64,000 nucleotides of DNA, taken from the NCBI GenBank assembly GCA_016927065.1, contig JAFGNJ010000005.1, forward strand, positions 62,001 to 126,000, read 5' to 3'. This document shows, piece by piece, positions 23,922 to 46,953 of this stretch. A program made the position numbers and the translations under genes. The notes beneath the pieces were generated by a model. It was not told the origin of the DNA. It did not search any database and saw nothing but the letters and a program-made list of their open reading frames with translations. Numbering within the stretch: the first letter of the stretch is position 1; the number at the start of each line of letters is the position of its first letter. The DNA is from Deltaproteobacteria bacterium. GTDB taxonomy: Bacteria; Desulfobacterota; B13-G15; RBG-16-54-18.

Positions 23922-23971
23922 AGGCCCTCATTCCTTCATGCCATTGTTCACCATAGAAAAGACTATAAGTA

Positions 23972-24463: not shown

Positions 24464-24478
24464 TAGGAAATTCCCATC

Positions 24479-24500
24479 CGCCTGCAGGCGCTAGTTAGAG
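24479..24500 (-). repeat. Vestigial attC site
   Basis: CTCTAAC (R''-like, containing the stop codon of the upstream gene) followed by the perfect palindrome CGCCTGCAGGCG. The second half with the R' box is absent, and the next gene starts 16 bases beyond. It is probably a deleted or fused cassette junction. Confidence 0.45.
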
Positions 24501-31632: not shown

Positions 31633-32637
31633 ATGAACATAGCGGTGATCGGAGCAGGCGCAATAGGGGGGTTGGTAGCAGGGTATCTAGTCGATAAAGG
31701 TGAGCAGGTAATATTAGCGGCTCATCCAGAGCACGTCGCACCTATTTTACAAAACGGCCTAACTATCGAAGGCGCTCGTGGCAGGCTGTGTGTCAGATTA
31801 CCGGTAAAACGTCAGTTGGAGGAACAGGTGGATGTAGCCATTTTGGCAACCAAGACTCCTGATTTAGAAGAGGCCATCACGCAAAATTTTGAATATCTCA
31901 AGGATACACGAATAGTATCCGTCCAGAATGGCGTCCGGGGAGAAAAGATTATTGCCGAGCATTTAGGCGCGGGTAGGCTTTTCCCCAGCATAGTTATGTT
32001 CGGGGCAACGTATCTGGCTCCGGGAAAGATCGTACATAACTTTGAAGGTGACTGGATTATAGGGGGGGCGAATTCAGGCGAGAATGAGATGTTCCATGAA
32101 ATCATTAAGGTAACTTCCAAGATATTCCCCTCCCCTGCAAGCGATGAAATAGAGGGAATGAAATGGATGAAATTATTCATAAATGCCAATAACTGTCTCC
32201 CTGCCATCTTAGGGAAGAGCATGCAGGAAACATTCAGTAATATCCCCGTCTGTAAAATTAGTATGCGGATTTGGCAAGAAGGCTTCGAGTTAGTAAATAA
32301 AGCACAGCTTACCTTATCCTCTTTACCAACATTCCCGGTAGAAAGGCTCACGCAGCTTATCGCTATGCCGTTGGACGAATCGGCGAAGGTATTCTCTTCC
32401 ATCATGCTCAATTTAAGCAAGGAGCCGCTGTATGGTTCTATCTTGCAGAGCATTCATAGAAAACGTCCTTCGGAGATCGATTATATCAACGGAGAGTTTG
32501 TTAATCTTGCCGTATCGATGGGGCAAAAGGCCTCGCTTAATGCAAAGCTTGTACAAATGGTGCACGACGTAGAAAAGAGTGGGAAATTTTTCAGCACGGA
32601 TGATTTAGTCAATCAAACAAAGGAGTTGATGAACTAA
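31633..32637 (+). CDS. Ketopantoate reductase family (PanE/ApbA) oxidoreductase
   Basis: A 334-residue NAD(P)H-dependent reductase. It starts MNIAVIGAGAIGGLVAGYL, the GxGAIG Rossmann motif of 2-dehydropantoate 2-reductase. The catalytic-lysine helix is in EGMKWMKLFINANNCLPAIL, and the C-terminal helical domain is of normal size. In panE the product feeds pantothenate and thereby coenzyme A and 4'-phosphopantetheine. Its place as first gene of an operon with ACP and AcpS could reflect that link, or it could reduce a 2-keto group in the product. It is followed after two bases by the next gene. Confidence 0.82.
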   Translation: MNIAVIGAGAIGGLVAGYLVDKGEQVILAAHPEHVAPILQNGLTIEGARGRLCVRLPVKRQLEEQVDVAILATKTPDLEEAITQNFEYLKDTRIVSVQNGVRGEKIIAEHLGAGRLFPSIVMFGATYLAPGKIVHNFEGDWIIGGANSGENEMFHEIIKVTSKIFPSPASDEIEGMKWMKLFINANNCLPAILGKSMQETFSNIPVCKISMRIWQEGFELVNKAQLTLSSLPTFPVERLTQLIAMPLDESAKVFSSIMLNLSKEPLYGSILQSIHRKRPSEIDYINGEFVNLAVSMGQKASLNAKLVQMVHDVEKSGKFFSTDDLVNQTKELMN

Positions 32638-32639
32638 TT

Positions 32640-33224
32640 ATGGTGAATACGCCATTCCCTAAATTGAAGCTCACTGTCACAAAAGTAGAAGGGAGATGCT
32701 ATCACAATTACGAAATGGGTGATGAAATAATCCTGGAGGATTTCACTCATCCACCGGAGCACTTCTGTTTGGGCTTGGCACACGCGCTTTTCCCCGCCAT
32801 CTATTCGCTGAGTTTTGCTGCCTGTCTACCCTTCATGGAGAATCAGCGATCACTGTACGTGACGTGTCCGGACGGAGGGAAGCTGGAATTCTTGGCTGAG
32901 GTGCTGGATTACAGCGGTAATGTCTCCGTAATACCAAAAGACCCCACCTATCAGGGGCCCCGGCCAAAAAAATTGTTGGTAGAGGTGGTTCAAGACAGGG
33001 GCGGCTGCACGTATGGGTACAAGCTGGGGGACCAGTTTGAGTTTGAGGGGTTGAAGTGCAAGGAGGGATTTTGCGGGGCGGCGTACCACCTCCTTTTCCC
33101 CGCGCTCTTTGGGCTTAATTTCGGGGCCAAGTTTTTTTTCATGCAGAACCCCGATTCGATAGATACCGTGACGTGTCCCGACAAAGGCAAGATAGTCTTT
33201 AAGGTAACGAGAGAAGAAGAATGA
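32640..33224 (+). CDS. Tandem TIGR04076-like protein
   Basis: Two copies of one small domain (about 8-95 and 105-190). Each has KVEGRCYHNYEMGDEI or QDRGGCTYGYKLGDQF, then a cysteine block (HFCLGLAHALFPAIYSL or GFCGAAYHLLFPALFGL) and a CPD motif (VTCPDGGKLEF or VTCPDKGKIVF). This pattern fits the TIGR04076 family of small cysteine-containing proteins of unknown function, usually single-domain. Four cysteines per repeat suggest metal or Fe-S binding. It overlaps the ketosynthase start by four bases. Confidence 0.62.
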   Translation: MVNTPFPKLKLTVTKVEGRCYHNYEMGDEIILEDFTHPPEHFCLGLAHALFPAIYSLSFAACLPFMENQRSLYVTCPDGGKLEFLAEVLDYSGNVSVIPKDPTYQGPRPKKLLVEVVQDRGGCTYGYKLGDQFEFEGLKCKEGFCGAAYHLLFPALFGLNFGAKFFFMQNPDSIDTVTCPDKGKIVFKVTREEE

Positions 33225-34486
33225 AAAAGAGAGCGGTTGTCACTGGGTTAGGTGTCATCGCACCGAGCGGTATAGGCCTAGAGCAGTTCTGGCGGAATAT
33301 TGCCGGCGGGGTACCAGCCATAAAGAAAGTAAGAGATTTCGATGTTTCACCATTCAACTCCCAGATAGCGGCGCAGGTGGAGAATTTCCTCCCCCAAAAC
33401 TTCGGCCTCAGCGAAAAAACTGCTCAAAGGATGGATCGCTATGTCCAATTTGCCGTGGCGGCTGCCAAGATGGCCGTTGAAGATGCCTCTCTGGATTTCA
33501 GCCGATTGGACAAAAGGCGTGCCGGCGTAATCCTGGCAAATGCCATCAGCGGCACAAAATACATGGAAGAGGAATTCTTGCGCGTTACCAATAATGGAAA
33601 AGAACCTATTGATCCCCGTCTTGTTCGTTCCGATCTCTACGATGCCTCAATGTTCAATACACCATCAAGCGAGATCTCCAATTTTTGGAAATTAAACGGT
33701 ATCTGCACGACGGTCTCTACCGGCTGCACTGCAGGAACTGATTCCGTTGGTTTGTCTTTGGAGATGATTCAAGACGGGAGGCAGGATGTCATTATCACGG
33801 GAGCCTCAGAGGCCCCTCTCACCCCCATCACCTTCGGCGCGTTTGATGTCATCAATGTGCTCTCTACTCATAACGATGAGCCGGCCAAGGCCTCTCGACC
33901 CTTTGATGGCAAACGGAATGGTTTTGTCATCGCCGAGGGCTGCGGCATTCTCATCTTGGAGGAATTAGAGCATGCGATAAGGCGCAAGGCCAAGATCTAT
34001 GCCGAAGTCCTTGGCTACGGAACGTGCAATAACGCATTTCATATGACTGATCTCCCTGCCGATGGTGAGGCAATGGCCGAGTGTATAACGCTGGCATTAG
34101 AAGATGCCTCTATTACGCCGGATAAAATCGGATATATCAACGCCCATGGTTCCTCAACACATCAGAATGATATCTTTGAAACAGCCGCGTATAAAAAGGT
34201 CTTTCAGGATCTCGCCTATAAAATACCCATTAGCTCTTTAAAATCGATGTTCGGACATCCCTTGGCCGCAGCGAATGCGGTGGAGTTCGTTGCCTGTGCC
34301 TTAATATTTAAACACGACTTCCTGCCGCCAACTATTAACCAGGAGGTCCCTGATCCGCTGTGTGACTTGGATTACATCCCAAATAAAGGCAGAAAAGAGA
34401 AAGTAGATTATATACTCAAGACGAGTTCAGGATTTTCTGGGCTCCACTCCTCATTAATAATGAAACGCTGGGAGGAAAAATCATGA
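33221..34486 (+). CDS. Type II PKS beta-ketoacyl synthase, KS-alpha
   Basis: A 421-residue condensing enzyme of the FabF/KS-alpha class that extends an ACP-bound chain by decarboxylative Claisen condensation. The triad is intact: C169 in STGCTAGTDSVG, H309 in NAHGSSTHQND and H346 in MFGHPLAAAN, with K341 before the last motif. It is coupled (four-base overlap) to a partner that lacks this triad, the arrangement of KS-alpha/KS-beta heterodimers. The adjacent ACP, aromatase, ketoreductase and AcpS genes support polyketide rather than housekeeping fatty acid synthesis. Confidence 0.88.
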   Translation: MKKRAVVTGLGVIAPSGIGLEQFWRNIAGGVPAIKKVRDFDVSPFNSQIAAQVENFLPQNFGLSEKTAQRMDRYVQFAVAAAKMAVEDASLDFSRLDKRRAGVILANAISGTKYMEEEFLRVTNNGKEPIDPRLVRSDLYDASMFNTPSSEISNFWKLNGICTTVSTGCTAGTDSVGLSLEMIQDGRQDVIITGASEAPLTPITFGAFDVINVLSTHNDEPAKASRPFDGKRNGFVIAEGCGILILEELEHAIRRKAKIYAEVLGYGTCNNAFHMTDLPADGEAMAECITLALEDASITPDKIGYINAHGSSTHQNDIFETAAYKKVFQDLAYKIPISSLKSMFGHPLAAANAVEFVACALIFKHDFLPPTINQEVPDPLCDLDYIPNKGRKEKVDYILKTSSGFSGLHSSLIMKRWEEKS

Positions 34487-35769
34487 AAGACATAGTGATT
34501 ACGGGAATGGGGGTCGCCGCGCCACCCGGGATCGGCACGGAAGACTTCTGGCACAACATCAGGGACGGAAGGTCTTTCGTTGGTCCTATTTCGCGCTTTG
34601 ATTCTTCCCTCTATCCGTCACGTATTGCCGGACAAATTAATGGCTTAGAGTCATATAGTGAAAGATTATCTCCCCGACTACTGAAAAAGATAGACCGCTT
34701 CTCTCACATGGCCTTGGTGACTTCGGAATTAGCCCTGAAGGATGCAAGCATCGATTTACATAATTTTAATCTTAACCGCACGGGTATTTTTATGGGTAAT
34801 ACACTCGGCGGCTGGTTGTTTGCAGAAACAGAATTAAGGGATCTCCATGTAGAAGGGCGTGAGGGCGTGAGCCCCTATATGGCCTCGGCCTGGTTTCCCG
34901 CTGCCCCCCAGGGACAGATCTCTATACTGTATGGCATTAAGGGTTATTCCAAGACCGTAATTGCTGATCGAGCCGGTTCTCTGATGGCCATTGCGTATGG
35001 TGCGCAGATCTTAGCGCGGGGGAAACTGGATTTGGTCCTAGCGGGCGGGACAGAAGCGCCGGTTACCCCGTATGCGCTTTTATGCTGCAATACGTATGAT
35101 TTGCTTTCCCGAAAGAACGATGCCCCTGAAACAGCCTATGCACCCTTTGATAAAAACCGTGACGGCCTTGTTGTTGCAGAGGGTGCCGGCATCGTAACGT
35201 TGGAACGACTTGATGACGCGCGAAAACGAAACGCGCCACTCTATGCCAAGATTTGCGGTTTTTATACCAATTGCGACGGACATGACCGTGTTGTGTTTGA
35301 GCCGGAGGGACTTGCCTTAGCGTGGGCTATTGAAGAAGCGCTCAAAGAGGCAGAATTCGACAAAGATAGTATCGATTATATCTGTGCTGATGGAGCAGCC
35401 AATGCCTCCGGAGATATCAGCGAGACTCGGGCAATAAAGAAGGTCTTTGGCAAAAGGGCAAAGGAAATCCCGGTAAGCGCCCCGAAGTCGATGTTCGGCA
35501 ATTTGCTGGGGGCGCAGGGGAGTGTAGACGTTATTACGACCGTTCTAAGCATGATGTTCAACAATATTTGCCCGACGATAAATCATAGAAATCCTGACCC
35601 GGAGTGTGATTTAGATTATGTTCCCAACAAAGCCCAGCAGAAAGACATCAAACGTGCCTTGGTGATATCCCGAGGTCGAGGCGGCATCAATGCGGTGATG
35701 GCCTTGGAAAGGCTCCGCAATGGTCATAAACCCACGACGCTTACAGGAGGAAATCACTATGTCAGTTGA
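34483..35769 (+). CDS. Type II PKS chain-length-factor-like KS-beta (inactive ketosynthase)
   Basis: A 428-residue thiolase-fold protein similar in length and order to the upstream KS. All three catalytic positions are changed: the cysteine is R in IADRAGSLMAIAYG, the first histidine is D in CADGAANASGD and the second is N in MFGNLLGAQGS. This is how chain length factors differ from their KS partners, although the canonical CLF has glutamine at the cysteine position. It is presumed to form the heterodimer that fixes chain length. It overlaps KS-alpha by four bases and the ACP gene by eleven. Confidence 0.85.
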   Translation: MKDIVITGMGVAAPPGIGTEDFWHNIRDGRSFVGPISRFDSSLYPSRIAGQINGLESYSERLSPRLLKKIDRFSHMALVTSELALKDASIDLHNFNLNRTGIFMGNTLGGWLFAETELRDLHVEGREGVSPYMASAWFPAAPQGQISILYGIKGYSKTVIADRAGSLMAIAYGAQILARGKLDLVLAGGTEAPVTPYALLCCNTYDLLSRKNDAPETAYAPFDKNRDGLVVAEGAGIVTLERLDDARKRNAPLYAKICGFYTNCDGHDRVVFEPEGLALAWAIEEALKEAEFDKDSIDYICADGAANASGDISETRAIKKVFGKRAKEIPVSAPKSMFGNLLGAQGSVDVITTVLSMMFNNICPTINHRNPDPECDLDYVPNKAQQKDIKRALVISRGRGGINAVMALERLRNGHKPTTLTGGNHYVS

Positions 35770-35998
35770 ACAGGAGGTTCAACAGATTATCATCCAGACC
35801 TTAAATGTGCTTCCAGAAGAACTCAAAATAGATGAGCGGCTCTATGACTCGTTAGGGGTCGATTCAACGGAGATGGTAGAGCTAGTCATTGTCTTGGAGA
35901 AAAAATTCGGCATCACCATTGAAGATAAGCAAATCACTAAATTTAGCTCACCGCGGGAGATCATTATGCTCATGGAGCAAAAGAGGGGAACAGCGTAG
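35759..35998 (+). CDS. Acyl carrier protein
   Basis: A 79-residue acidic ACP. S36 in LGVDSTEMVELV is the 4'-phosphopantetheine attachment site, and the helical layout is standard. CAGGAGG at 35744 fixes the ATG at 35759, inside the end of the KS-beta gene. It carries the growing polyketide between KS, ketoreductase and cyclases. The AcpS homologue encoded at 42746 is the likely activator. Confidence 0.92.
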   Translation: MSVEQEVQQIIIQTLNVLPEELKIDERLYDSLGVDSTEMVELVIVLEKKFGITIEDKQITKFSSPREIIMLMEQKRGTA

Positions 35999-35999
35999 C

Positions 36000-36803
36000 A
36001 TGAAATATATTGATTTAAGCCTACCGATCGATGAAGGAAACCCTGAGGCGCATCCTATTAGGATAGAAAGGCTCGCGCACAAGAAAGGCATCGAGCATTT
36101 GAATTGGGTCATGATGCGGAAAGGCCTCAAGGGCGTTATTTCCTATCTGATGGGTAAAAGAATAATCAAACCCGCCGATTTGCCTGATGGAGAATTTCTC
36201 TCTTTGGAGATGGTCTATTGCAGTGTGCATACCGGAACACATGTGGATGCCCCCTTTCATTTTGGTACCACCTGTGAAAACAGGGATTCTAAAAAGATTG
36301 ATGAGTTGCCTCTCGATTGGTTTTTTCAAAACGGAGTTGTCTTAGATATGACACATAAAAATCCGGCCGAGGCAATTAATAAAGAAGACGTGATAACCGC
36401 TTTGGATAGAATCAATTACGCCTTAAAGCCGAAAGACATCGTACTGTTCCATACCGGTGCTGACAAATATTTCGGCAGTAAAGATTATATGAATAAGTTC
36501 TGCGGCGTAAGTGCAGAAGCCATAGAGTGGTTGTGGGACCAAGACATAAAGGTTATGGGCATAGATGCCTTGGGTTTTGACAGACCATACCCTGCGATGC
36601 TCAAAGACTTTTTGTCAAACCAAGACAAAACAGCCCTCTGGCCGGCCCACTTTTGCGGCCGCAAAAAAGAGTATGCGCATATTGAACGCCTGGCTAATCT
36701 TGATAAGCTTCCTCAACCGTTTGGCTTTAAGGTCGCCTGTTTCCCGATCAGAATAAAAGACGCGGGAGCTAGTTTCGCCCGTGTCGTGGCTATGACTGAA
36801 TAA
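36000..36803 (+). CDS. Kynurenine formamidase-like cyclase family protein
   Basis: A 267-residue metal-dependent hydrolase/cyclase fold protein. It opens MKYIDLSLPIDEGNPEAHP, and SVHTGTHVDAPFHF contains the HxGTHxDAPxH zinc signature. Family members hydrolyse formylkynurenine or act as polyketide cyclases. In a polyketide operon a ring-closing or hydrolytic role is plausible. It starts two bases after the ACP stop codon. Confidence 0.82.
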   Translation: MKYIDLSLPIDEGNPEAHPIRIERLAHKKGIEHLNWVMMRKGLKGVISYLMGKRIIKPADLPDGEFLSLEMVYCSVHTGTHVDAPFHFGTTCENRDSKKIDELPLDWFFQNGVVLDMTHKNPAEAINKEDVITALDRINYALKPKDIVLFHTGADKYFGSKDYMNKFCGVSAEAIEWLWDQDIKVMGIDALGFDRPYPAMLKDFLSNQDKTALWPAHFCGRKKEYAHIERLANLDKLPQPFGFKVACFPIRIKDAGASFARVVAMTE

Positions 36804-36823
36804 AGCTGTAGAAGGGAGAACTT

Positions 36824-37264
36824 ATGGGTCATACGAACAATTCCATCGTCATTAACGCTCCTTACGAAAAGGTATTTGATATCTCCAATGACATTGAACG
36901 GTGGACAGAATTATTTGGCGGGGAATATACGGAGGCAAAGATTGTAAAGCGTGAAGGGAACAAAATCACCTTTCAGTTAACCGATGATGAAGGTCGTTCC
37001 TGGCAATCTTTCCGTCTGCTTTTTAAAAATAATTATTTCGCCTACGCCCAAAAACTTCCGCCGGAATTTCCTTTTACCCATATGAAGATTATCTGGCTCT
37101 ATACTCCTCAAGACGGAAGCATTGTGATGACGTGGATACAAGATTTTCATATGGATGAGAAGGCCTCGTTCAATGATGACCAAGTTGAAGAGATGATCAA
37201 TAAGCACTCTCAAGAAAACATGAAGATATTCAAGCGTATCATCGAACAGGAGGCAGGCACATAA
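36824..37264 (+). CDS. SRPBCC aromatase/cyclase-like protein
   Basis: A 146-residue START-like (SRPBCC) protein. It opens with NSIVINAPYEKVFDISNDIERWTELFGGEYTEAKIV, the form seen in type II PKS aromatase/cyclases (TcmN N-terminal type), where the pocket directs first-ring folding of the poly-beta-keto chain. WLYTPQDGSIVMTWIQDFHM forms the later strands. AAGGGAG precedes the ATG. Ketosynthases, ACP and ketoreductase in the same operon support an aromatic product. The alternative is a generic lipid-binding SRPBCC role. Confidence 0.8.
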   Translation: MGHTNNSIVINAPYEKVFDISNDIERWTELFGGEYTEAKIVKREGNKITFQLTDDEGRSWQSFRLLFKNNYFAYAQKLPPEFPFTHMKIIWLYTPQDGSIVMTWIQDFHMDEKASFNDDQVEEMINKHSQENMKIFKRIIEQEAGT

Positions 37265-37287
37265 AACGTTCAGTTTTTATCATTATC

Positions 37288-38400
37288 ATGTCAGCCGGTT
37301 TTGTTCTGTCCTTTAATGTGGCAGCTATCTCAGCCTTAATCCCCTCAGTTGCTGAAACATTGAAGGTAGATGAATTTCTCGCCGGCAAAGCGGTATGGCT
37401 CTATATGCTTCCGTATGGGTTGGCGGCATTGTTATACGGACCTCTGGCCAGAGGGGTGGAGTATAAAAAGATACTGTTGTTCTGCATAGGGGGTCTCTCG
37501 ATAGCCAATGTTATCGCTGGCATTGCCTCACATATATACGTCCTTTTTGCTGCGAGGATCCTCGCCGGCATAGCCGGGGCGGCCATTATACCGTTAAGTT
37601 TAATTCTTATTGCCACGACCTCTCCCGCGGGACAGAGAGGCAAAAAAGTAGGTGGGTTTTTTAGCCTCACATTTCTCTCTACGCTGTTGGGGGTGTTTTT
37701 AAGCGGCGTAATCTTCTGGCGCTGGATTTTTCTGTTACCGGGAATTGCGGCAGCATTTGTCGCCCTGGGAGTTTATGTGTATTTCCCCGAATTCTCCGGC
37801 AAAAAAGAAAGGGTGAGATTCCGTTATATTCAAGTACTTTCAGACAAACACGTCTATCGTTTATTTGTTTACATTTTCTTTATGAGTTTTCTATTCCATG
37901 GCATACGGCAATGGCTTGGGGTCTATTTCTCCACGATATATGGGTTTGAGCAATTTCTTATCAGCATGCTTTTGACGACCATATCTCTCAGCGGCATTCT
38001 CGGGGAATCATTAGGAGGGATATTGGCCGATCGGCTGGGTAGGATCAAGGTAGTCAATGTGGGGGTGCTTTTGATGGTTACTGTCTTAATTATACTGTTG
38101 TTTAAAAACAGTATGGTCCTCCTTTTCGCCCTGATGTTTGTCTGGGGTTTAGGGTGGACCTTTAATCATGCAGGGATTTCCACAAACATATGCGACCTTC
38201 CGCACAGGCTCCTGCACGAATCAACCAGTCTCAATAGTGCTGTCCGATTTTTATCGGGAGGCTTAGGGGCAGTCTTCGGAGGGATGGTCGCTCAGAGGAA
38301 CTTTCGCTTAGAATTTGCCGTTTTCGCCAGTTGTTTGTTGTTGTTGGTTGTTTTTAGCAAAAAGCTTTTACTGACGACGGAGGCATTCACATATGGATAA
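37288..38400 (+). CDS. MFS transporter of the polyketide operon
   Basis: A 12-helix-type major facilitator protein of about 370 residues. After the second helix comes YGPLARGVEYKKILLFCIG (motif A position), and in the second half GGILADRLGRIKVVNVG is a clear motif A. It may export the product. The start is uncertain: ATG at 37288 has no ribosome binding site. A perfect AGGAGG lies eight bases before ATA at 37261, which overlaps the previous stop codon and would give the N-terminus KRSVFIIIMSAGF. It overlaps the downstream SDR gene by eight bases. Confidence 0.83.
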   Translation: MSAGFVLSFNVAAISALIPSVAETLKVDEFLAGKAVWLYMLPYGLAALLYGPLARGVEYKKILLFCIGGLSIANVIAGIASHIYVLFAARILAGIAGAAIIPLSLILIATTSPAGQRGKKVGGFFSLTFLSTLLGVFLSGVIFWRWIFLLPGIAAAFVALGVYVYFPEFSGKKERVRFRYIQVLSDKHVYRLFVYIFFMSFLFHGIRQWLGVYFSTIYGFEQFLISMLLTTISLSGILGESLGGILADRLGRIKVVNVGVLLMVTVLIILLFKNSMVLLFALMFVWGLGWTFNHAGISTNICDLPHRLLHESTSLNSAVRFLSGGLGAVFGGMVAQRNFRLEFAVFASCLLLLVVFSKKLLLTTEAFTYG

Positions 38401-39166
38401 CCTCAAAGGCAAAAATGCGATTATCAGCGGGGCAAGTAAGGGTATCGGCAAGGCTATTGCCAATAGGTTGGCCCAACATGGTGTCAATCTAGTTTTGGCG
38501 GCTCGGACCAAGTCGAAATTAGATAAGACAGCAAAAGAATTACAAGCGGAACATGCCGTTAAGGTAATAGGAGTCCCCTGTGATGTATCGCGTTTATCCG
38601 ATTTAGAGAACTTATGTACGGTAGCTGTGGAGACATTGGGGCGAGTCGATATCTTGATTAACAATGCCGGTGTTTCCAGTCAATATCCCTTCGAGCAACA
38701 GCCGTTAGAGGATTTAGAACGTCTCGCGCACACCAACTATTTGGGGTATGTACGGCTTACCCGTCTTATTATCCCCCATATGCTAAAGAACAAATCCGGA
38801 TCCATTATTAATCTGGTCTCGGGTTCGGTCTTGGTGGAACCTGTACCGCGCAGTTTTCTGGTGTATAGCTCGCTGAAGGTCGGGCTGCGTGCCTTTTCTA
38901 AAGGACTCTTTTGGGAGATGCGCGACCACGGTATCAAGGTCACGGCCATTATGCCAGGTGTTACCGATACCGAGTTGACCGGGAAGCTATCCGAAATAAC
39001 AGAGGAGCAGAAAGAGAGGTTAATCTCAACTCAATCAATAGAAGACGCCGTGATGTTTGCCTTGACCGTCCCTCAGAATGTCTGTCCCTTGGAGTTGGCG
39101 GTGATTAATCAGCAGACGCCGTGGACAAAGCCGGTCATCCCGTTTACACAAAAGCATCCTCAATAA
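38393..39166 (+). CDS. Short-chain dehydrogenase/reductase (ketoreductase)
   Basis: A 257-residue classical SDR. The cofactor motif is ISGASKGIGKAIA, followed by DILINNAGVSS. The catalytic serine lies in INLVSGSVL and Y-x-x-x-K in VYSSLKVGL. It is likely the ketoreductase that reduces a specific carbonyl of the polyketide chain. The N-terminus DNLKGKNAIISGAS fits the start at 38393. Confidence 0.9.
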   Translation: MDNLKGKNAIISGASKGIGKAIANRLAQHGVNLVLAARTKSKLDKTAKELQAEHAVKVIGVPCDVSRLSDLENLCTVAVETLGRVDILINNAGVSSQYPFEQQPLEDLERLAHTNYLGYVRLTRLIIPHMLKNKSGSIINLVSGSVLVEPVPRSFLVYSSLKVGLRAFSKGLFWEMRDHGIKVTAIMPGVTDTELTGKLSEITEEQKERLISTQSIEDAVMFALTVPQNVCPLELAVINQQTPWTKPVIPFTQKHPQ

Positions 39167-39167
39167 T

Positions 39168-39581: not shown

Positions 39582-39601
39582 AATTTGAAAGGAGACATAC
39601 T

Positions 39602-41068
39602 ATGAAAGTCTTATTTGTTACTCCCAAATTAGGTGCGTGGGCAACGCATGGCCACCATGTGGCGGCCAATCAGATGCACGCCCATTGGGCTGCCTATGCT
39701 CGCGAACAAGGAACCATTGAACCTGAAGTATTGGATTGCAAGGCATGGGATATCCCCATGGACAAAATGGCAGAGATTGTAAAGGAAAAGAATCCTGATG
39801 TCGTGGTGTTGGGGGATATGCTCCATTCTTACGGAGGGTTTGCCGTCCAGTGGTATTTCAATGAGGCAGCTAAAATAATTAAACAGGCACTGCCTCAGGT
39901 AAAAGTCGTCGTGGGTGGCTTATGGTATTCCTATTTGAGCAAAGAGACTCTTGAACAAAATCCGCCAATAGACTTCGTCGTCATGGGTGAAGGAGAGGTA
40001 ACCTTTAACGAGTTAATGGATGCCCTGGGCAACGGCAAAAAAGACGCCTATGATATCGCTGGAGTGGCTTCCCGAAAGAATGGCGAAATAGTCTTCGGGC
40101 CGGTACGTGATCTTATAAAAGATTTAGATTCGCTGCCCCTGCCCGCCTACGATTTATTCCCAATGGAAAAATATGTGGGGCACACGTACTGGAAACCCTT
40201 TATGGAGATTGTTACCTCGCGCGGATGCCCCCATGCTTGCACGTTTTGTTATGAGTGGAGTGAACATGACCCACGGGCATTAAAACATTTTACTAATTGG
40301 CGCGCTAAGTCGGCCAAACGCGTGGTTGATGAGGTGGAACTTTTGGAGAAAAAATTCGGTGTTCAGGTTATCGTTATTCAAGAAGATAACTTTAATGTTA
40401 ACGGTAAAAGGGCGCGGGAGTTCTGTGAAGAAAAGATGAAGCGCGGTCTGGATATGAAATGGGTAAGCCTTGGGTGCGCCAGTGACTGGGTAAAAGCTGA
40501 ACAAGACATCCCCCTCATGAAAGAAGCGGGGATGTTTATGGGTGTGTTCGGCATCGAGGTGGCCAGCGAGCAGGAATTGAGAAAGCTCGACAAAGGCATA
40601 ACTATTGATCAAATATATAAGACCATCGAGATCTTGCGCAAAAATGATATCGCCATCGTCGGCGACATCATGATCGGATTTGACTACGACACAGAGCAGA
40701 TTATTAAAGAACGGCTTGCCTTTGCAGATGAGGTTGACCCCGACATCTTGTGGATTGGATATCTCACGCCTCCGCCTGGTTCACCCCATTGGGAGGATTC
40801 GATAAAACAAGGCTGGGTAGATCCTAACAATGTCGATATCTTAAAGTGGGACTTTTTACACCCCATTATTCCGACCAACCATCTTTCTATTGAAGATTTA
40901 GGGAGGTTGGGTGCGTGGTGTATGCGCGAATTTTTTAGTAAGCCGGGGAGGATCCACCGCATATTAGAGAGCAACTTCGACCCCTTGGCTAAGGTCTGCT
41001 TTCAGGATGTCATGGATCATGTCCCACAGTGGGAAGCCGGGGCGGTGGAAGGGAAACTGCACGTATAA
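39602..41068 (+). CDS. B12-type radical SAM enzyme of the polyketide operon
   Basis: A 488-residue radical SAM protein. The N-terminal Rossmann-like domain (about 1-140) contains VVLGDMLHSYGG and KVVVGGLWYSYLSKETLE, cobalamin-domain-like but without a clear DxHxxG motif. The core cluster motif is TSRGCPHACTFCYEWSEHD (CxxxCxxC). The C-terminal region has MIGFDYDTEQIIKERLAFADE and WIGYLTPPPGSPHWED, usual for this group. GAAAGGAG precedes the ATG. It would generate a 5'-deoxyadenosyl radical or add a methyl group; products of that chemistry are the substrates expected for the downstream phosphorylase-isomerase-aldolase set. Confidence 0.88.
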   Translation: MKVLFVTPKLGAWATHGHHVAANQMHAHWAAYAREQGTIEPEVLDCKAWDIPMDKMAEIVKEKNPDVVVLGDMLHSYGGFAVQWYFNEAAKIIKQALPQVKVVVGGLWYSYLSKETLEQNPPIDFVVMGEGEVTFNELMDALGNGKKDAYDIAGVASRKNGEIVFGPVRDLIKDLDSLPLPAYDLFPMEKYVGHTYWKPFMEIVTSRGCPHACTFCYEWSEHDPRALKHFTNWRAKSAKRVVDEVELLEKKFGVQVIVIQEDNFNVNGKRAREFCEEKMKRGLDMKWVSLGCASDWVKAEQDIPLMKEAGMFMGVFGIEVASEQELRKLDKGITIDQIYKTIEILRKNDIAIVGDIMIGFDYDTEQIIKERLAFADEVDPDILWIGYLTPPPGSPHWEDSIKQGWVDPNNVDILKWDFLHPIIPTNHLSIEDLGRLGAWCMREFFSKPGRIHRILESNFDPLAKVCFQDVMDHVPQWEAGAVEGKLHV

Positions 41069-41073
41069 GCGCA

Positions 41074-41997
41074 ATGCCTCCAGTCTGGGATGCACATACG
41101 CATTGGATGCCACCAGAAGTGGCTGAACATACCGCTTTTTACAAAAAGGGCTGGTCGGATATCGATTTGTTGTTACAGACCCTCGACGACGCAGGGATAG
41201 AAAGGGCGGTGTTGCTGTATCCCACTTCTGATGCCCACCTGAACCTGGGTGGATGGTCATGGGTGTGCGATGTGTACAACAGGGGAATCTCCAAAAAGGT
41301 ACAGGAGCACCCCGATCGCTTGATTGGGGCGGGAATTCTGCCTTTGGATAGCCCCAATGATATGGTCCGGGAGATCGATACAATACAAGACTTGGGGTTA
41401 TCCTGTCTCACTGTAGCTTCAAGTTACGAGAGCCGATATTTAGACGATGAGAGTTTCCTCCCAATATGGGAGAAGGCGGAGCAAGAAAATCTGCCCATTT
41501 TTGTGCATTCCCAGACTATCAACCCCATAGGCTTTGACAGAATAAAGGATCCGCTTTTAATGCCGGTTGTGGAATATCTCTTCGATATTACCATGTGTGC
41601 CGGCACCATGATGATGTCTGATCTATTAACACACCGTAATGGCCTTAAGGTTGTGTTTGCCCATTTTGCTGGGGTACTTCCCTTTTTAGCTGATCGCTTC
41701 GACTCGACGTACTCCATGTTGCGTTCACGGAATATGGTCAAAGACTTGGGAAGTGCCCCCTCGCATATTCTAAAGAATATCTTTGTCGATATAAGCGGCG
41801 TAACATCAACCTCCCTGTTGAATATGGCCTTAGAGTTTTTTGGGCCAAATCGAATAGTATGGGGGTCAGATTTTCCCGCACAAAAAAATCCAGCGGCAAG
41901 CATCAATGCCTTAGAGAACCTAAATATTCAACGAGAAGAAAAGAACAATATCATGGGCGGTAACGTGATTAATCTATTTCAAAACAAAGGAGGATAA
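41074..41997 (+). CDS. Amidohydrolase family 2 protein (ACMSD-like)
   Basis: A 307-residue TIM-barrel metal enzyme. It begins MPPVWDAHTHWMPP with the HxH metal motif. The later ligand histidines are in FVHSQTINP and VFAHFAGVLPFLADRF, and the aspartate is in IVWGSDFPAQKNPA. It belongs with 2-amino-3-carboxymuconate semialdehyde decarboxylase-like and other small decarboxylases or hydrolases. Decarboxylation or ring hydrolysis of an aromatic intermediate would fit the operon. The start at 41074 is six bases after the radical SAM stop codon; the frame is open further upstream but lies inside the previous gene. Confidence 0.83.
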   Translation: MPPVWDAHTHWMPPEVAEHTAFYKKGWSDIDLLLQTLDDAGIERAVLLYPTSDAHLNLGGWSWVCDVYNRGISKKVQEHPDRLIGAGILPLDSPNDMVREIDTIQDLGLSCLTVASSYESRYLDDESFLPIWEKAEQENLPIFVHSQTINPIGFDRIKDPLLMPVVEYLFDITMCAGTMMMSDLLTHRNGLKVVFAHFAGVLPFLADRFDSTYSMLRSRNMVKDLGSAPSHILKNIFVDISGVTSTSLLNMALEFFGPNRIVWGSDFPAQKNPAASINALENLNIQREEKNNIMGGNVINLFQNKGG

Positions 41998-41999
41998 CG

Positions 42000-42749
42000 A
42001 TGCCAATGCAAAAAGAAATCCATTTAACCGGAAGCGATTTAGCAGGAATGGTGCAATTGCGCCCGCAAGATATAGGAAAGTATGTCATTATGCCGGGCAC
42101 TCCGGATAGGTTAGAGGCCTTGGTTAAGAAAATTCAAAATCCCCTCAAGAATTTCTCCTTTATGGAACATACGATGTATACCGGAGAATACGATGGGGTA
42201 CGCATCACAGCCATGAATGGGGGTATGTTCTCGGCCAATACTGCCATTACCACAGAAATCGTGTGTAGTATTCAGGGAGAAAACCTCATTCGTTTGGGCT
42301 CTTGTGGCGCCTTGCGTGAGGATATCAAAGTAGGAAATCTCATTTTAGCCACCGCTTCAATAAGAGGCGATGGAGTAACGCCGTACTATGTCGACAGCAG
42401 CTTTGAAACCGCTCCTGATCCCGCACTTACCGAGGCCTTGGAGAAGGCGGCGGAAAAAGTGGGTGCGACAGTGCATAAGGGCAAAGTGTGGTCTACTGAT
42501 GCCCTCCTAAGAGAGACAAAGGAACTGGTAGAGGAAAAGGCAGCTGCTGGGGCCATTGCCGTAGATATGGTTTCTTCCACATTCTTAACCATCGCGCAGC
42601 TCAATAAGGCAAAGGCCGCCTCTATTCTTGCCGTCAGCGATAATGTGATGACGGGAGAGATGGGTTTTACCAATCCTGCCTATTATATTTCGGAAACGAC
42701 GATGATTAATGTCGCCCTGGAGGCAATTAAGCAACTAGAAAAAAAATGA
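42000..42749 (+). CDS. Nucleoside phosphorylase (NP-I family, uridine phosphorylase-like)
   Basis: A 249-residue NP-I family protein that would cleave a nucleoside with phosphate to give free base and sugar 1-phosphate. It shows YVIMPGTPDRLEAL (phosphate-binding glycine loop), NLIRLGSCGALREDIKVGN and ASILAVSDNVMTGEMGFT (base-site aspartate). The ribose-binding motif normally E-M-E reads D-M-V in AVDMVSSTFL, losing the glutamate that holds the ribose hydroxyls, which may signal an altered sugar. It overlaps the AcpS gene by four bases and follows the amidohydrolase by two. Confidence 0.85.
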   Translation: MPMQKEIHLTGSDLAGMVQLRPQDIGKYVIMPGTPDRLEALVKKIQNPLKNFSFMEHTMYTGEYDGVRITAMNGGMFSANTAITTEIVCSIQGENLIRLGSCGALREDIKVGNLILATASIRGDGVTPYYVDSSFETAPDPALTEALEKAAEKVGATVHKGKVWSTDALLRETKELVEEKAAAGAIAVDMVSSTFLTIAQLNKAKAASILAVSDNVMTGEMGFTNPAYYISETTMINVALEAIKQLEKK

Positions 42750-43084
42750 TAGGGATAGATATAGTAGAAGTCAATCGGATCAAAAATATGTTCCAGCGAC
42801 ATGAATCTCTGTTCTTAGAGAAGATATTAGATGCACAGGAGATCCATGAGCTCCCTGCGGATCGAAACAGATATTTTTTTAGAAGACTGAGTTGCTATAT
42901 TGCCTCCAAAGAGGCTATATATAAAGCCTATCCTGATGGGGATCTGGGCTGGAAGGACATCGTCATCCGTAATATTACGGAGACACCAGTTATATACATA
43001 AAAAAATCCGATGAGACAAAAAAGATTAAGCTGGCATTGACTATAAGCAGAGATATGGTGATATCTCAAGCCATGATTATTTGA
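42746..43084 (+). CDS. 4'-phosphopantetheinyl transferase, AcpS type
   Basis: A short (112 aa) holo-ACP synthase. IGIDIVEVNRIKNMF contains the first metal-binding aspartate motif, and CYIASKEAIYKAYPDGDLGWKDIVI the second (the canonical W-x-x-KEA-x-x-K, here IASKEAIYKA). It would transfer 4'-phosphopantetheine from CoA to S36 of the operon's ACP. Its placement far from the ACP but inside the same operon supports a dedicated, self-contained polyketide system. A 92-base gap follows, the widest in the operon. Confidence 0.85.
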   Translation: MIGIDIVEVNRIKNMFQRHESLFLEKILDAQEIHELPADRNRYFFRRLSCYIASKEAIYKAYPDGDLGWKDIVIRNITETPVIYIKKSDETKKIKLALTISRDMVISQAMII

Positions 43085-43179
43085 CCGCCTGAAAGTTTAT
43101 ACTCATGTACTGTTATCTTATGGTAAAAAAAAACGTCAACCGCGCTCAGGCCGTGCCTGTACCGTGATCGAGGCAATTG

Positions 43180-44088
43180 ATGGATACCCCCCTTGCATTC
43201 CCGGTACGGTTACAAGCAGAAAATACGATCTATGTCCTTGATGAAACTAAGTTGCCTTTTGAGGAAACCTATATAGAAGTGAAAACCCTCAATGATGCCC
43301 TGAAGGTCCTCGGTCAGATGAAGACCAGGGCCTTCGGCCAAGTGCTATTGTTTTTTTATATGTGTGTGCTCGAGGGATCGGTTGATGACGTAACGAAAGC
43401 CTTTCAGGACACCCGCCCTACCTTTGACTTTTCCCTTTTGGCAGATATCTTAAAAAGACGTGCAAAAAAAACATCCACGCTGAAAGAAGCAGCCGAGAGT
43501 ATTATCAGAGGGCTTGATGAACAAAAAAGGACGCGGGCGAGACGATTGGCCGAAATCCTCCCCCGCGATGCCCACATTTTGACTATCTGCAACGTAAGCG
43601 GTGAGCTTATCTATCTCTATGAAGCCCTCAAGGGAATAGGGAAAACCGCTACCTTTTTTGTCTCTGAGACTCGGCCGTATCTGCAAGGTACTCGGCTCAC
43701 CTTCTGGGAACTGAGCAGGGCCCATATACCTGCGCACGTACTCTGCGATAACCAAGCAGCCATAGTGATGAAAAATGGTTTAATTAACTGTGTAGTCACC
43801 GGTTCTGATAGGTCCACTGAGAGAGGTGATATCATAAATAAAATCGGCACCTATGCCATAGCCCGACTCTCACGTTATTTCGGAATACCCCTATATGTCT
43901 TGATACAATTTCCGAGCGACATAGTTGTAGAAGCGATATCTATCGAAGAACGCCCTGCCCAGGAAGTCTTTATGTGGCTTGACGGGAAAGATCCCTGGCC
44001 TGAGGCCCTGTATCCATCTTTTGATATCACCCCCTCTAACTTTATTTCGGGCTGGATAGACATCTTAGGGGAGGTACGATGCTCTTAA
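43180..44088 (+). CDS. MtnA-like aldose-ketose phosphate isomerase (IF2B superfamily)
   Basis: A 302-residue protein of the methylthioribose-1-phosphate isomerase group. LDETKLPFEE, the active-site cysteine in ILTICNVSG, SETRPYLQGTRLTFWEL, the catalytic aspartate in GSDRSTERGDIINKIGTYAIA and the terminal FDITPSNFI are all MtnA hallmarks. MtnA converts a 5-substituted ribose 1-phosphate to the ribulose 1-phosphate. The N-terminal VRGA motif is changed (KTRAFGQ) and the protein is shorter than the usual 340-370, so the 5-substituent may differ. ATG at 43180 follows GAGG by six bases; a TTG lies one codon earlier. Confidence 0.82.
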   Translation: MDTPLAFPVRLQAENTIYVLDETKLPFEETYIEVKTLNDALKVLGQMKTRAFGQVLLFFYMCVLEGSVDDVTKAFQDTRPTFDFSLLADILKRRAKKTSTLKEAAESIIRGLDEQKRTRARRLAEILPRDAHILTICNVSGELIYLYEALKGIGKTATFFVSETRPYLQGTRLTFWELSRAHIPAHVLCDNQAAIVMKNGLINCVVTGSDRSTERGDIINKIGTYAIARLSRYFGIPLYVLIQFPSDIVVEAISIEERPAQEVFMWLDGKDPWPEALYPSFDITPSNFISGWIDILGEVRCS

Positions 44089-44549
44089 GCGAATCGGGAG
44101 AACTCATACTCCTGTGGGGTATTCCTCTCAACAAAGAAATGGATGATATCAAAAAGAAGGTAGAGGCAGAGCGGGGGGTATCTGTCCTGGTACCCGAGAT
44201 GAGGCCTCATTTGCTTGGTTCAGTGATAGCGAAGAGACTGCAAAAGAAAAGAATTAAACACGTCTATATCACCGATAATATGCTGGGGATCCTTTTTTAC
44301 CAACACAAGATTAAAGAGGTCCTCTTTTTTTATAAAGAGCGGGGGGATCACCACTGGTGGGGCATCAACGGCAGCCTCTATGTCTGCCTGCTCGCCCACA
44401 TGCATGACGTGCCGATACAGCCTCTGCAAGGAGACACGGTGATACGGGCTGCTGAGATCAGTTTATCGCTTGACGACTATATGTGCTTTCACTATAACGA
44501 TCTTATAAAGGCGGAGGATGAAGCTGTCCCCGATGAGGTAATCCAATGA
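44079..44549 (+). CDS. Degenerate half-size IF2B-like protein
   Basis: A 156-residue protein overlapping the isomerase gene by ten bases. It resembles the C-terminal half of the same fold: VPEMRPHLLGSVIAKRL recalls the ETRP-x-x-x-G motif, KHVYITDNMLG the strand after it, and INGSLYVCLLAHMHDVPIQPL the NKIGT helix and strand. The catalytic aspartate and NKIGT motif are missing (YKERGDHHWWGING). It is probably a non-catalytic partner of the adjacent MtnA-like protein that arose by duplication. This is inferred from pattern only. Confidence 0.6.
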   Translation: MLLSESGELILLWGIPLNKEMDDIKKKVEAERGVSVLVPEMRPHLLGSVIAKRLQKKRIKHVYITDNMLGILFYQHKIKEVLFFYKERGDHHWWGINGSLYVCLLAHMHDVPIQPLQGDTVIRAAEISLSLDDYMCFHYNDLIKAEDEAVPDEVIQ

Positions 44550-45532
44550 CGTACGAAAAGGAAAAGCAGGAAATCCGTTTTTGGGGCTTGCAGCTGCACC
44601 GACAAGGGATCAACTTCGGGCGGTCGGGCAATATATCGAAGAGAACCGGAGATAAAATCCTCATCACAGCCCATGAGAGCTACCTGGGATTCCTCGATGA
44701 GGATGATATTTTGGTTATGGATAAAGACGGCAAAATCGTAGAAGGAGAAAAGGAACCTACTTCTGAAAAACTCCTCCATATATATCTCTATCAGCACTAT
44801 CCTCAAAAACAGGTGATCATCCATGCGCATCCGCCCTATACGGTTCATTATTTCCACTCCTCTGAGACCTTGACTCCCATCACCCTCGAGGAGCGGGTAT
44901 ATCTTGGAAAGGTCGGCGCCATCACTCAAAAAACCCCCACGATTACAGATATTCAACCTGTCCAAGAGGCCTTAGACACCAACGATATTGTTGTCATAAA
45001 AGACCACGGCGTAGTAGCCATAGGGGAAGACTTTAAATACACCTTCTCCCTCATCGAGCTCTTAGAGGTCAATGCGAGGGTGCGTTTGACCACGACACAT
45101 TCTCCGTTAAGGATGGAGAAACCGGTTCAAGATAAAAAACAATCAAGGAAGTATAAACTCTTTTCTCCGGATCATATAAACGCCTTAGTTGAGGTTATCA
45201 ACAGCGATGAGAGCGCGCAGTCCCTCGGAAAGGAATATGACCTGACAACCACCATATGCACTAAGGTGACGGACAGTGAGGAGGTCTTCTCCTTCTGCTA
45301 TGAACAAGGAAAGATCATCGAAGTAAAATATAATGATGATGGAGCTGATTTTGTCTTTTCCGCCAAACGAGGAACGTGGCAAAATATCTTCGCGGGGAAC
45401 CTTGACCCCTTTGTAGCTAGAACACAAGGAAAAATCAAATTAAAGGGCGACTTCAATCTCCTCTCGCGATGGTTCCCCGTCTTTGAAAGGACTTTTTCCC
45501 TCTGGATGAAGTTGCCGCTGGAGTCATCATGA
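44546..45532 (+). CDS. Class II aldolase fused to an SCP2-like lipid-binding domain
   Basis: A 328-residue two-domain protein. The first 200 residues are a class II aldolase/adducin domain: GRSGNISKRTGDKILITA (phosphate loop), IIHAHPPYTVHYF (zinc histidines) and VVIKDHGVVAIGED (third histidine). Such enzymes split fuculose 1-phosphate or 5-deoxyribulose 1-phosphate to DHAP and an aldehyde. The remaining residues (about 210-325; LVEVINSDESAQ, GADFVFSAKRGTWQNIFAGNLDPFVARTQGKIKLKGDF) match the SCP2 sterol-carrier domain, which binds hydrophobic ligands. The fusion suggests a greasy substrate. It overlaps its neighbours by four bases on each side. Confidence 0.83.
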   Translation: MTYEKEKQEIRFWGLQLHRQGINFGRSGNISKRTGDKILITAHESYLGFLDEDDILVMDKDGKIVEGEKEPTSEKLLHIYLYQHYPQKQVIIHAHPPYTVHYFHSSETLTPITLEERVYLGKVGAITQKTPTITDIQPVQEALDTNDIVVIKDHGVVAIGEDFKYTFSLIELLEVNARVRLTTTHSPLRMEKPVQDKKQSRKYKLFSPDHINALVEVINSDESAQSLGKEYDLTTTICTKVTDSEEVFSFCYEQGKIIEVKYNDDGADFVFSAKRGTWQNIFAGNLDPFVARTQGKIKLKGDFNLLSRWFPVFERTFSLWMKLPLESS

Positions 45533-46953
45533 CGCAATACCCCATGTATATAAGAGGAGAATTTAAAGAAAAATCAGAGCGGATTGATATTGAAGATCCC
45601 TATAAGCAAGAAATCTTCGCTCAGATATCTCAGGCAGATCAGGAAGATTTAACGGACTGCATCGAAAAGGCTCGAAGGGCACAAAAAGTATGGCAGGAAA
45701 CTCCTCTGAAAGAAAGATCGGATTTACTAGTGGAAGTTTCGCATGTCATTATCGATAATCTCAAGGAATTGGCAGAGATCGAGTCCAGAGAGATCGGCAA
45801 GCCGATCAAAGAAACGCTCTTCGTGGATGTCCCGCTCGCCGCCAATTGTTTTGAGTACTATGGATCATTATTGCAGAATTTTCCCGCCTCTCTCTCCGCC
45901 CGCCAAGAGACCGTTGATATGATCCACTACCATCCCTTTGGAATCGCGGGGATTTTCTTACCGTATAATGTGCCGTTGATGATCTTTGGATTCAACGCTG
46001 CCGCCGCATTAGCGGCGGGGAATGCAATCATTGTCAAACCATCGGAGTTTGGAAGTCTTTCGTTATTGACCTTGGCCAAATATCTTCATGAGCTAGAGTT
46101 CCCCCGTGGGCTGATCAATATCGTCACCGGAGTAGGCCCTGGCATCGGTAAGACATTGGCCTCATCGGATGTAGACATCATCTCGTTCACTGGTTCAAGC
46201 GTAACACTCCAAGAGGTATTCAAAAATATAACACAACCGAAAAAGCTCCTCTGTGAATTGAGCGGCGCAAACATGGCGATTATTTTCACCGATGCGAACA
46301 TGGAGGAGGCAATTGAAAATCTCACCGCCTCGACGTTTATGAAGCAAGGCCAGATGTGCATCGGTACCAGTATAGCCGCGGTAGAAGAAAATATCTATGA
46401 AGAATTCTTGGCTATGCTCGTAAATAAAACTGAAAAAATAAAGACAGGCAATCCCCTTGCGTCTACCACCCATATGGGTCCTCTGAGATCAAAAGAGCAC
46501 CTAAAAAAGGTTATAAACAAGGTGGAACAATTTAAAAAAACGGGGAAAATTGTTACGGGGGGAAAGCGTATCGAAACACAAGGGTATTTTTTCGAGCCCA
46601 CCATTATCGAAATCCAGGAGATGATATACGAAGAGTGCTTCGCCCCCATCCTCTTGATAAAGAAATGCAAAAAGGAAGATATGGAAATGCTGGTAGAAAA
46701 TAACCCCACCGGCCTGGTTTTACAGATTTGGACGCACGATATGCAAAAGGCGCATTCGTTAGCTATGCAAGCCCACTGTGGAACCGTATGGATCAACACC
46801 TTTGCCCAAATGGATACCTCAACGCCATTCGGCGGATGTAAGGGGAGCGGTTGGGGAAGCGTCTTAGGTAAAGAGGGATTACTTGAATACCTCCAGCCTA
46901 AACATATCGGGATCTGCTACGGCAAAAGTCAGGTGTCGGGTTGGTTTGGATAG
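45529..46953 (+). CDS. Aldehyde dehydrogenase (NAD(P)+-dependent)
   Basis: A 474-residue member of the ALDH superfamily. The active-site asparagine is in FLPYNVPLMIFG, NAD-binding residues are in IIVKPSEFGS and SFTGSSVTL, the general base is in LCELSGANMAII and the catalytic cysteine in KQGQMCIGTS. It would oxidise the aldehyde released by the upstream aldolase to a carboxylate. Its four-base overlap with the aldolase gene makes consecutive action likely. It is the last gene of the operon; 186 bases without a gene follow. Confidence 0.9.
   Translation: MTQYPMYIRGEFKEKSERIDIEDPYKQEIFAQISQADQEDLTDCIEKARRAQKVWQETPLKERSDLLVEVSHVIIDNLKELAEIESREIGKPIKETLFVDVPLAANCFEYYGSLLQNFPASLSARQETVDMIHYHPFGIAGIFLPYNVPLMIFGFNAAAALAAGNAIIVKPSEFGSLSLLTLAKYLHELEFPRGLINIVTGVGPGIGKTLASSDVDIISFTGSSVTLQEVFKNITQPKKLLCELSGANMAIIFTDANMEEAIENLTASTFMKQGQMCIGTSIAAVEENIYEEFLAMLVNKTEKIKTGNPLASTTHMGPLRSKEHLKKVINKVEQFKKTGKIVTGGKRIETQGYFFEPTIIEIQEMIYEECFAPILLIKKCKKEDMEMLVENNPTGLVLQIWTHDMQKAHSLAMQAHCGTVWINTFAQMDTSTPFGGCKGSGWGSVLGKEGLLEYLQPKHIGICYGKSQVSGWFG

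Follow-up and report, generated by a model that had tools for sequence, protein, structure and literature searches.

One operon of a Deltaproteobacteria bacterium (Desulfobacterota; B13-G15; RBG-16-54-18; assembly GCA_016927065.1) combines a predicted type II polyketide synthase (PKS) with a gene set that may dismantle nucleosides, and these two sets probably form one uncharacterised biosynthetic pathway, because they co-occur in about a third of the sampled Omnitrophota genomes. The operon lies in the window, meaning here the whole 64,000-nucleotide stretch that was analysed (contig JAFGNJ010000005.1, positions 62,001 to 126,000), where it occupies positions 31633-46953 with 18 co-directional genes on the plus strand (Table 1). 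The original prediction, made from the letters alone, had described about 18 tightly packed plus-strand genes, all of which are present where it placed them. We ran Pfam and NCBIfam profiles on the window proteins, using curated NCBIfam cut-offs for equivalog tests; each enzyme class named in the prediction is backed by these profiles, and the proposed coupling of a type II PKS and a radical S-adenosylmethionine (SAM) enzyme to a route like the dihydroxyacetone phosphate (DHAP) shunt is supported at the gene level. Our analysis adds a B12 domain, a second MtnA paralogue and an SCP2 domain on the aldolase, as well as genes that had not been listed (ketopantoate-reductase-like, TIGR04076, amidohydrolase-2, MFS transporter and a 137-aa protein).

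The linkage between the polyketide genes and the sugar-phosphate module (phosphorylase, MtnA-like isomerase, class II aldolase and aldehyde dehydrogenase, ALDH) is not accidental. We surveyed the window's phylum (395 genomes) and the Omnitrophota (285 genomes, chosen as one relative is an Omnitrophota metagenome-assembled genome); many of these genomes are incomplete, such that an absence is weak evidence. Isomerase orthologues were set apart from housekeeping MtnA by bit score and coverage. Among the Omnitrophota, the ketosynthase KS-alpha occurs in 98 of 285 genomes and the isomerase in 104 of 285, with 93 genomes carrying both, 5 the ketosynthase only, 11 the isomerase only and 176 neither (odds ratio 298; Fisher p 1.5e-55, which ignores relatedness and hence measures association, not independent events). 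Co-occurrence of phosphorylase, isomerase and aldolase with the ketosynthase pair, which the original prediction had put forward as a check, is thus strongly positive in this phylum. Of 66 pairs of KS-alpha and isomerase genes that share a contig, 64 belong to joint clusters, at a spacing of 5.7 to 14.5 kb. For example, two full clusters (G504 and G433) carry nearly the gene content of the window operon, including the 137-aa protein, in the order polyketide genes, radical SAM enzyme, cyclases, short-chain dehydrogenase/reductase (SDR), amidohydrolase, phosphorylase, isomerase, aldolase-SCP2 and ALDH, and in G504 an acyl-CoA ligase gene comes next after ALDH. A further cluster (G513) encodes the same functions, second MtnA included, in another gene order.

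In the window's own phylum the same check is positive but small. The phosphorylase subfamily is found in 10 of 395 genomes and the isomerase orthologue in exactly those 10; KS-alpha orthologues are found in 5 of 395, of which 3 overlap with the module (hypergeometric p ~1e-4, uncorrected for relatedness). Three other genomes (G046, G141 and G013) carry a core polyketide operon of slightly varying order, comprising genes for the radical SAM enzyme, an aldehyde:ferredoxin-oxidoreductase (AOR)-type enzyme, the ketopantoate-reductase-like and TIGR04076 proteins, KS-alpha, KS-beta, acyl carrier protein (ACP), cyclase, aromatase, SDR and amidohydrolase, with no sugar-phosphate genes at the locus. 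Both sets are nonetheless present, at separate loci, in G046 and G141, where the sugar set is accompanied by a different B12 radical SAM enzyme of its own and by MMPL, DUF1329/LolA-like, DUF1302 and acyl-CoA ligase genes. Modules also occur in genomes without a detected KS-alpha orthologue (G002, G113, G081, G167, G191, G200 and G010). The neighbours of PKS-free modules include MMPL, DUF1329/LolA-like and DUF1302 genes for membrane export, as would fit a lipid-like product. The module of G010 (L063 8705-14975, plus strand) has no aldolase or ALDH gene; it consists of phosphorylase, isomerase, radical SAM, second MtnA and acyl-CoA ligase genes, next to a gene resembling lipid A acyltransferases. 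Two relatives from the window's own family (G001 and G002) have one half each, and are uninformative on the joining of the halves because their contigs end within the radical SAM gene.

The polyketide half of the operon has the features of a type II PKS and is predicted to encode aromatic-type polyketide assembly. KS-alpha carries the active-site Cys (GCTAGT), KS-beta lacks it (DRAGS), the ACP is free (PF00550), and a START aromatase, a PF04199 cyclase and an SDR are all in the cluster. The active-site Cys is usually replaced by Gln in chain-length factors; KS-beta of the window has Arg. Solved-structure matches include the actinorhodin KS (1tqy_A) and KS2 (1tqy_B), as well as 6smo_B, which we take to be AntD of the Photorhabdus anthraquinone PKS. 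The radical SAM enzyme is nearest BchE and HpnJ yet falls below both equivalog cut-offs (216 of 481 bits and 161 of 578 bits, respectively). It is 60% identical over 488 of 488 aa to its counterpart in the G046 polyketide operon, 88% identical to that of the Omnitrophota genome G469 and about 40% identical to rSAM1 of the PKS-free modules; by sequence it groups with the PKS-linked type and not with the type of the PKS-free modules. The parallel that had been drawn with HpnH and HpnG of hopanoid synthesis holds in its logic, but the window enzymes are not family-level homologues: NCBIfam gave no HpnH match among them, and HpnG reached 47.8 of 187 bits, under its cut-off.

AOR-type genes adjoin the radical SAM gene in the polyketide operons of three related genomes (L087 6654-8486, plus strand; L088 6391-8223, plus strand; L098 7826-9727, minus strand), the last of which also has an 80-aa protein that is ThiS/MoaD-like as judged by eye; the window operon has no such gene and has ALDH instead. 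Directly after the G141 polyketide operon lie a glycyl radical enzyme and its activase, plus an extra rSAM1-type gene (L088 15403-18701, plus strand; L097 1713-3152, plus strand). We considered arylacetate decarboxylation by this glycyl radical enzyme and set it aside, as its specificity could not be assigned.

In the module, the phosphorylase, isomerase and class II aldolase types of the DHAP shunt and of 5-deoxyribose disposal are all present (PF01048, PF01008 and PF00596). Aligned to solved phosphorylases, the phosphorylase has the residues of the phosphate site and the Asp that protonates the base; its fold is nearest 1odi and Sulfolobus MTAP, and its scores lie under the cut-offs for canonical hexameric NP-I enzymes of the DeoD and uridine phosphorylase kind (TIGR01718, 133 of 280 bits; TIGR00107, 113 of 232 bits) and under that of MqnB (25.7 of 125 bits). 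The second Glu of the EMEA/EMES sugar motif binds the ribose hydroxyls in NP-I enzymes. This motif is replaced by DMVSS, DMVTS or DMISS in every aligned member of the family, and EMEx is kept in the NP-I paralogue of the same genome and in the aligned solved relatives. In the isomerase MTNA1, catalytic Cys138 and Asp211 are invariant, with Cys and Asp kept in 11 of 11 aligned relatives, despite a score below the canonical MtnA cut-off (TIGR00512, 158 of 279 bits). The short paralogue MTNA2 is without the catalytic Cys and Asp, and is presumed to be a non-catalytic partner subunit of MTNA1, as supported by the fusion of both homologues into one 508-aa protein in G200. That fusion gene (L062 9526-11052, plus strand) adjoins a gene for a CCG-domain Fe-S protein, with no radical SAM gene nearby.

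The aldolase has an invariant metal His triad and catalytic Glu (Glu74, His93, His95 and His154), and its SCP2 domain, a sterol/lipid carrier, is found in every copy tested (1e-9 to 3e-6 in relatives), the full-length protein being alignable over all ten members. In an AlphaFold (AF2) model with a mean pLDDT of 88, the catalytic part is nearest L-fuculose-1-phosphate aldolase FucA, and the Bacillus thuringiensis aldolase (6btg/6btd) is also among the best fold matches. The ALDH keeps its catalytic Cys277 and Glu243 in alignment. The window operon has no acyl-CoA ligase gene, and outside the window's family one often neighbours the module; the encoded enzyme is closest to the long-chain/aryl PRK06187 type and not to acetate ligase. 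Elsewhere the window genome has an MTAP-like gene, an EMEx NP-I enzyme and a canonical MtnA, the last of which rules out the MtnA-like gene of the operon as the cell's sole MtnA. As for the futalosine pathway, its MqnA/MqnD marker PF02621 was not found in the window genome (G000). A novel quinone pathway was rejected as a general reading, as futalosine genes are kept in seven relatives with the PKS and/or the module.

By its sequence identities the window operon is a mosaic, with a junction between the phosphorylase and isomerase genes. Identity to the Omnitrophota genome G469 is 81% for KS-alpha, 88% for the radical SAM enzyme, 68% for the amidohydrolase and 82% for the phosphorylase, and then 37% for the isomerase, 42% for the aldolase and 36% for ALDH; identity to G046, of the window's own phylum, is 50% for the phosphorylase and 63, 59 and 65% for the isomerase, aldolase and ALDH. 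The AcpS gene and the only large gap of the operon lie at this junction. Horizontal exchange accounts for this most simply: one half of the module would have been swapped for a counterpart of equal function, an argument both for a need for that function and for the interchangeability of the enzymes.

It is plausible, though we place it a little short of an even chance, that the operon encodes one anaerobic pathway in which a hydrophobic acceptor receives a 5'-deoxyadenosyl group that is then cut down to a two-carbon acid. The radical SAM enzyme would use SAM to 5'-deoxyadenosylate the hydrophobic polyketide, loss of adenine through the phosphorylase would leave a 5-substituted ribose 1-phosphate, and the MtnA-like pair would isomerise this to the ribulose 1-phosphate. 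With the hydrophobic part bound in its SCP2 domain, the aldolase would then cleave this product to DHAP and polyketide-CH2-CHO, from which ALDH would make polyketide-CH2-COOH, an acid that an acyl-CoA ligase could activate. The net result would be a carboxymethyl extension whose two carbons are C4' and C5' of the ribose of SAM. Read in order, the enzymes would release adenine, isomerise the aldose to a ketose, split this into DHAP and an aldehyde by aldol cleavage and oxidise the aldehyde to an acid, with CoA activation in relatives; there the module genes are arranged (phosphorylase, isomerase, aldolase, ALDH, acyl-CoA ligase) in the order of the steps from a 5'-substituted adenosine to an activated acid. 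In PKS-free modules, with their different radical SAM enzyme, the same chemistry might act on another, lipid-like acceptor. More broadly, it is conceivable, and we hold it as a tentative proposal, that these B12 radical SAM enzymes use SAM as a two-carbon donor, a so far undescribed route to carbon-carbon bonds on hydrophobic natural products; the acceptor would be one polyketide in Omnitrophota and in certain members of the window's phylum, and another lipid in further lineages.

The original prediction had offered carboxymethyl extension as one of two possibilities, the other being salvage of 5'-deoxyadenosine. Extension is favoured by the SCP2 domain that the aldolase carries, the long-chain/aryl type of the ligase, the separate MTAP-like and MtnA genes and the conserved association with a pathway for a hydrophobic product; it loses weight from the occurrence of the same module without a PKS, beside a second radical SAM enzyme. 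Other points also weigh against it. We know of no B12-dependent radical SAM enzyme that transfers an adenosyl group, and those radical SAM enzymes that are known to us to adenosylate, HpnH and MqnE, belong to other types than B12/BchE. PKS and non-PKS settings can exchange the isomerase-aldolase-ALDH half, for which a common small substrate such as 5'-deoxyadenosine is the simpler explanation. Modules lack ALDH in G113 and G081 and both aldolase and ALDH in G010, and in the 5 and 11 discordant Omnitrophota genomes one set was detected without the other. The interchangeable half, the B12 enzyme without precedent for adenosyl transfer and the incomplete modules favour disposal of 5'-deoxyadenosine or something else. 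Lastly, a phosphorylase without the Glu for the ribose 2'/3' hydroxyls would be odd for an unmodified ribose whether the module serves extension or disposal; the DMVSS change was rejected as a discriminator between the two, since both substrates carry the ribose diol.

Disposal is the main rival, and one that we consider unlikely without dismissing it: the B12 radical SAM enzyme would modify the polyketide, by methylation or by BchE-like anaerobic oxygenation or cyclisation, and the module would turn the freed 5'-deoxyadenosine into adenine, DHAP and, by way of acetaldehyde, acetate. The enzyme types match those given for 5'-deoxyribose disposal and the DHAP shunt in the available text of two accounts (PMC6079011; PMC8102628), in the second of which radical SAM enzymes are described as inhibited by 5'-deoxyadenosine; moreover, two different radical SAM types accompany the module and the nearest aldolase folds include the B. 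thuringiensis enzyme. Yet plain salvage needs no such module, because MTAP-like, canonical MtnA and EMEx NP-I genes lie elsewhere in the window genome, and salvage does not predict the SCP2 domain, the long-chain/aryl ligase or the inactive MtnA partner. Furthermore, radical SAM enzymes are close to universal, yet 385 of the 395 genomes surveyed in the phylum lack the module.

It is also possible that the route runs in reverse, the ligase and ALDH (as a reductase) supplying a hydrophobic aldehyde. The aldolase would condense this with DHAP, the isomerase would form a 5-substituted ribose 1-phosphate and the phosphorylase would attach a base, and the resulting nucleoside of a lipid or polyketide would then be altered by the radical SAM enzyme. 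Such aldol equilibria strongly favour condensation, according to the available text of one account (PMC6079011), and outside the window's family the ligase gene often lies next to the module, but Glu243 and Cys277 of ALDH are typical of oxidising enzymes, no acyl-CoA reductase equivalog scored above its NCBIfam cut-off among the window proteins, and the window operon has no ligase; we regard this direction as improbable. Least probable in our view is that two independent functions share the operon, with the sugar set serving another compound and the link being one of inheritance only. Modules without a PKS (G113, G081, G167, G200 and G010) and polyketide operons without the module at the locus (G046, G141 and G013) are as this would have it; in contrast, the sets co-occur and cluster repeatedly in two phyla, half of the module has been replaced in place by an equivalent, and G046 and G141 hold both sets even at separate loci.

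If the carboxymethyl extension is real, a secondary metabolite or lipid would receive a two-carbon unit from SAM, and searches for pathways of this kind could use the SCP2-aldolase as a clear marker. We know of no described aromatic polyketide pathway in which SAM has this role. Even if the module serves disposal, a polyketide cluster is kept in about a third of the sampled genomes of the Omnitrophota, a largely uncultured phylum, and such conservation suggests that the product matters to these cells.

The genes of the operon are tightly packed: most overlap or abut, and no gap exceeds 23 bp, the sole exception being 95 bp between AcpS and the MtnA-like gene. Several of the accessory genes recur elsewhere. 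The ketopantoate-reductase-like gene likewise precedes TIGR04076 and the ketosynthase in loci L087, L088, L098, L090, L156 and L160, and TIGR04076 adjoins KS-alpha across the related loci examined; the START-type gene is kept in the full polyketide loci examined and the amidohydrolase-2 gene at the ends of polyketide operons in related genomes. Homologues of U137 (48-51% identity) occupy the same place in Omnitrophota clusters, the MFS exporter gene is present in loci L157, L160 and L152, and AcpS is present in the G002 locus. Outside the operon, a second B12-binding radical SAM gene (26433-27779, plus strand) lies ~4 kb upstream, adjoining cytochrome c assembly and glutamyl-tRNA reductase genes. 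Four successive short open reading frames (163-179 aa; 22846-24995, minus strand), in a low-GC stretch and without a confident Pfam match, are possibly a tandem family.

Table 1. Genes of the operon in the window, with the profile or structure matches on which each assignment rests.
Gene and product	Position	Strand	Evidence
KPR, ketopantoate reductase-like (ApbA/PanE) oxidoreductase, first gene of the polyketide set	31633..32637	+	PF02558 4e-31
TIGR04076 protein, domain twice	32640..33224	+	TIGR04076 2.6e-28, two stretches
KS-alpha, active-site Cys (STGCTAGTDS)	33221..34486	+	best PDB match 6smo_B, then 1tqy_A
KS-beta/chain-length-factor-like, without active-site Cys (IADRAGS)	34483..35769	+	PF00109/PF02801; 1tqy_B among matches
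ACP, GVDST phosphopantetheine site	35759..35998	+	PF00550 9e-11; internal ATG taken as start
PF04199 cyclase, metal motif HTGTHVDAPFHF	36000..36803	+	PF04199 4e-35
START-type aromatase/cyclase	36824..37264	+	PF10604/PF03364 ~5e-8
MFS exporter	37288..38400	+	PF07690 1.5e-39
SDR ketoreductase	38393..39166	+	PF00106 3e-51
U137, conserved 137-aa protein	39168..39581	+	no Pfam/NCBIfam match
rSAM2, B12-binding radical SAM enzyme, PKS-linked type	39602..41068	+	PF04055 1e-17, PF02310 1e-12
Amidohydrolase-2, ACMSD-type decarboxylase/hydrolase, HTH metal motif	41074..41997	+	PF04909 5e-19
PNP, hexameric NP-I-type nucleoside phosphorylase	42000..42749	+	PF01048 4e-39
AcpS-type phosphopantetheinyl transferase	42746..43084	+	PF01648 2e-9
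MTNA1, MtnA-like sugar-phosphate isomerase	43177..44088	+	PF01008 7e-34; solved MtnA 1t9k
MTNA2, short MtnA paralogue	44079..44549	+	PF01008 3e-7
ALD, class II aldolase with C-terminal SCP2	44546..45532	+	PF00596 8e-31, PF02036 4e-7
ALDH, aldehyde dehydrogenase	45529..46953	+	PF00171 2e-123

Among known systems, hopanoid synthesis by HpnH and HpnG is alike in logic, as a lipid is adenosylated and adenine is removed; hopanoids retain the sugar, whereas the proposed pathway would cut it away. In the fluorometabolite pathway of Streptomyces cattleya the aldehyde is oxidised to an acid, the substrate comes from the fluorinase and not from a radical SAM enzyme, and no PKS takes part. What that pathway shares, as the available text of one account has it, is the conversion of a 5'-substituted adenosine to DHAP plus an aldehyde (PMC6079011). 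The anthraquinone (Ant) and actinorhodin type II PKSs have the same KS-alpha/KS-beta/ACP core, and differ in that here the Cys of KS-beta is replaced by Arg or Lys, a B12 radical SAM gene lies in the operon, an AOR-type enzyme occurs in relatives and the hosts are assumed to be anaerobic. Similarly, in the coelulatin cluster a radical SAM enzyme, CoeI, acts on a type II aromatic polyketide, but CoeI is HemN-like and methylates, and nucleoside-degrading genes go unmentioned in the abstract of that paper (PMC9714029). The PKS itself is no discovery, because ketosynthase/chain-length-factor pairs of Omnitrophica and delta-proteobacteria have already been catalogued (PMC10132072), in a paper where a word search found no mention of radical SAM or phosphorylase. 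In the open-licence papers searched we found no description of a PKS combined with radical SAM and nucleoside-dismantling genes, and nothing relevant on SCP2, aldolase, isomerase and radical SAM together. The closest parallel to the module, 5-deoxyribose disposal (drdK/I/A) or the DHAP shunt, likewise uses a phosphorylase or kinase, an MtnA-type isomerase and a class II aldolase to reach DHAP plus an aldehyde (available text of PMC6079011), and the available text of the DHAP-shunt descriptions mentions neither an SCP2 domain nor a PKS (PMC6079011; PMC8102628). The window system differs from it in the SCP2 domain on its aldolase, a phosphorylase of a distinct NP-I subfamily, an often present second, inactive MtnA, the linked PKS and radical SAM genes and, in relatives, the acyl-CoA ligase.

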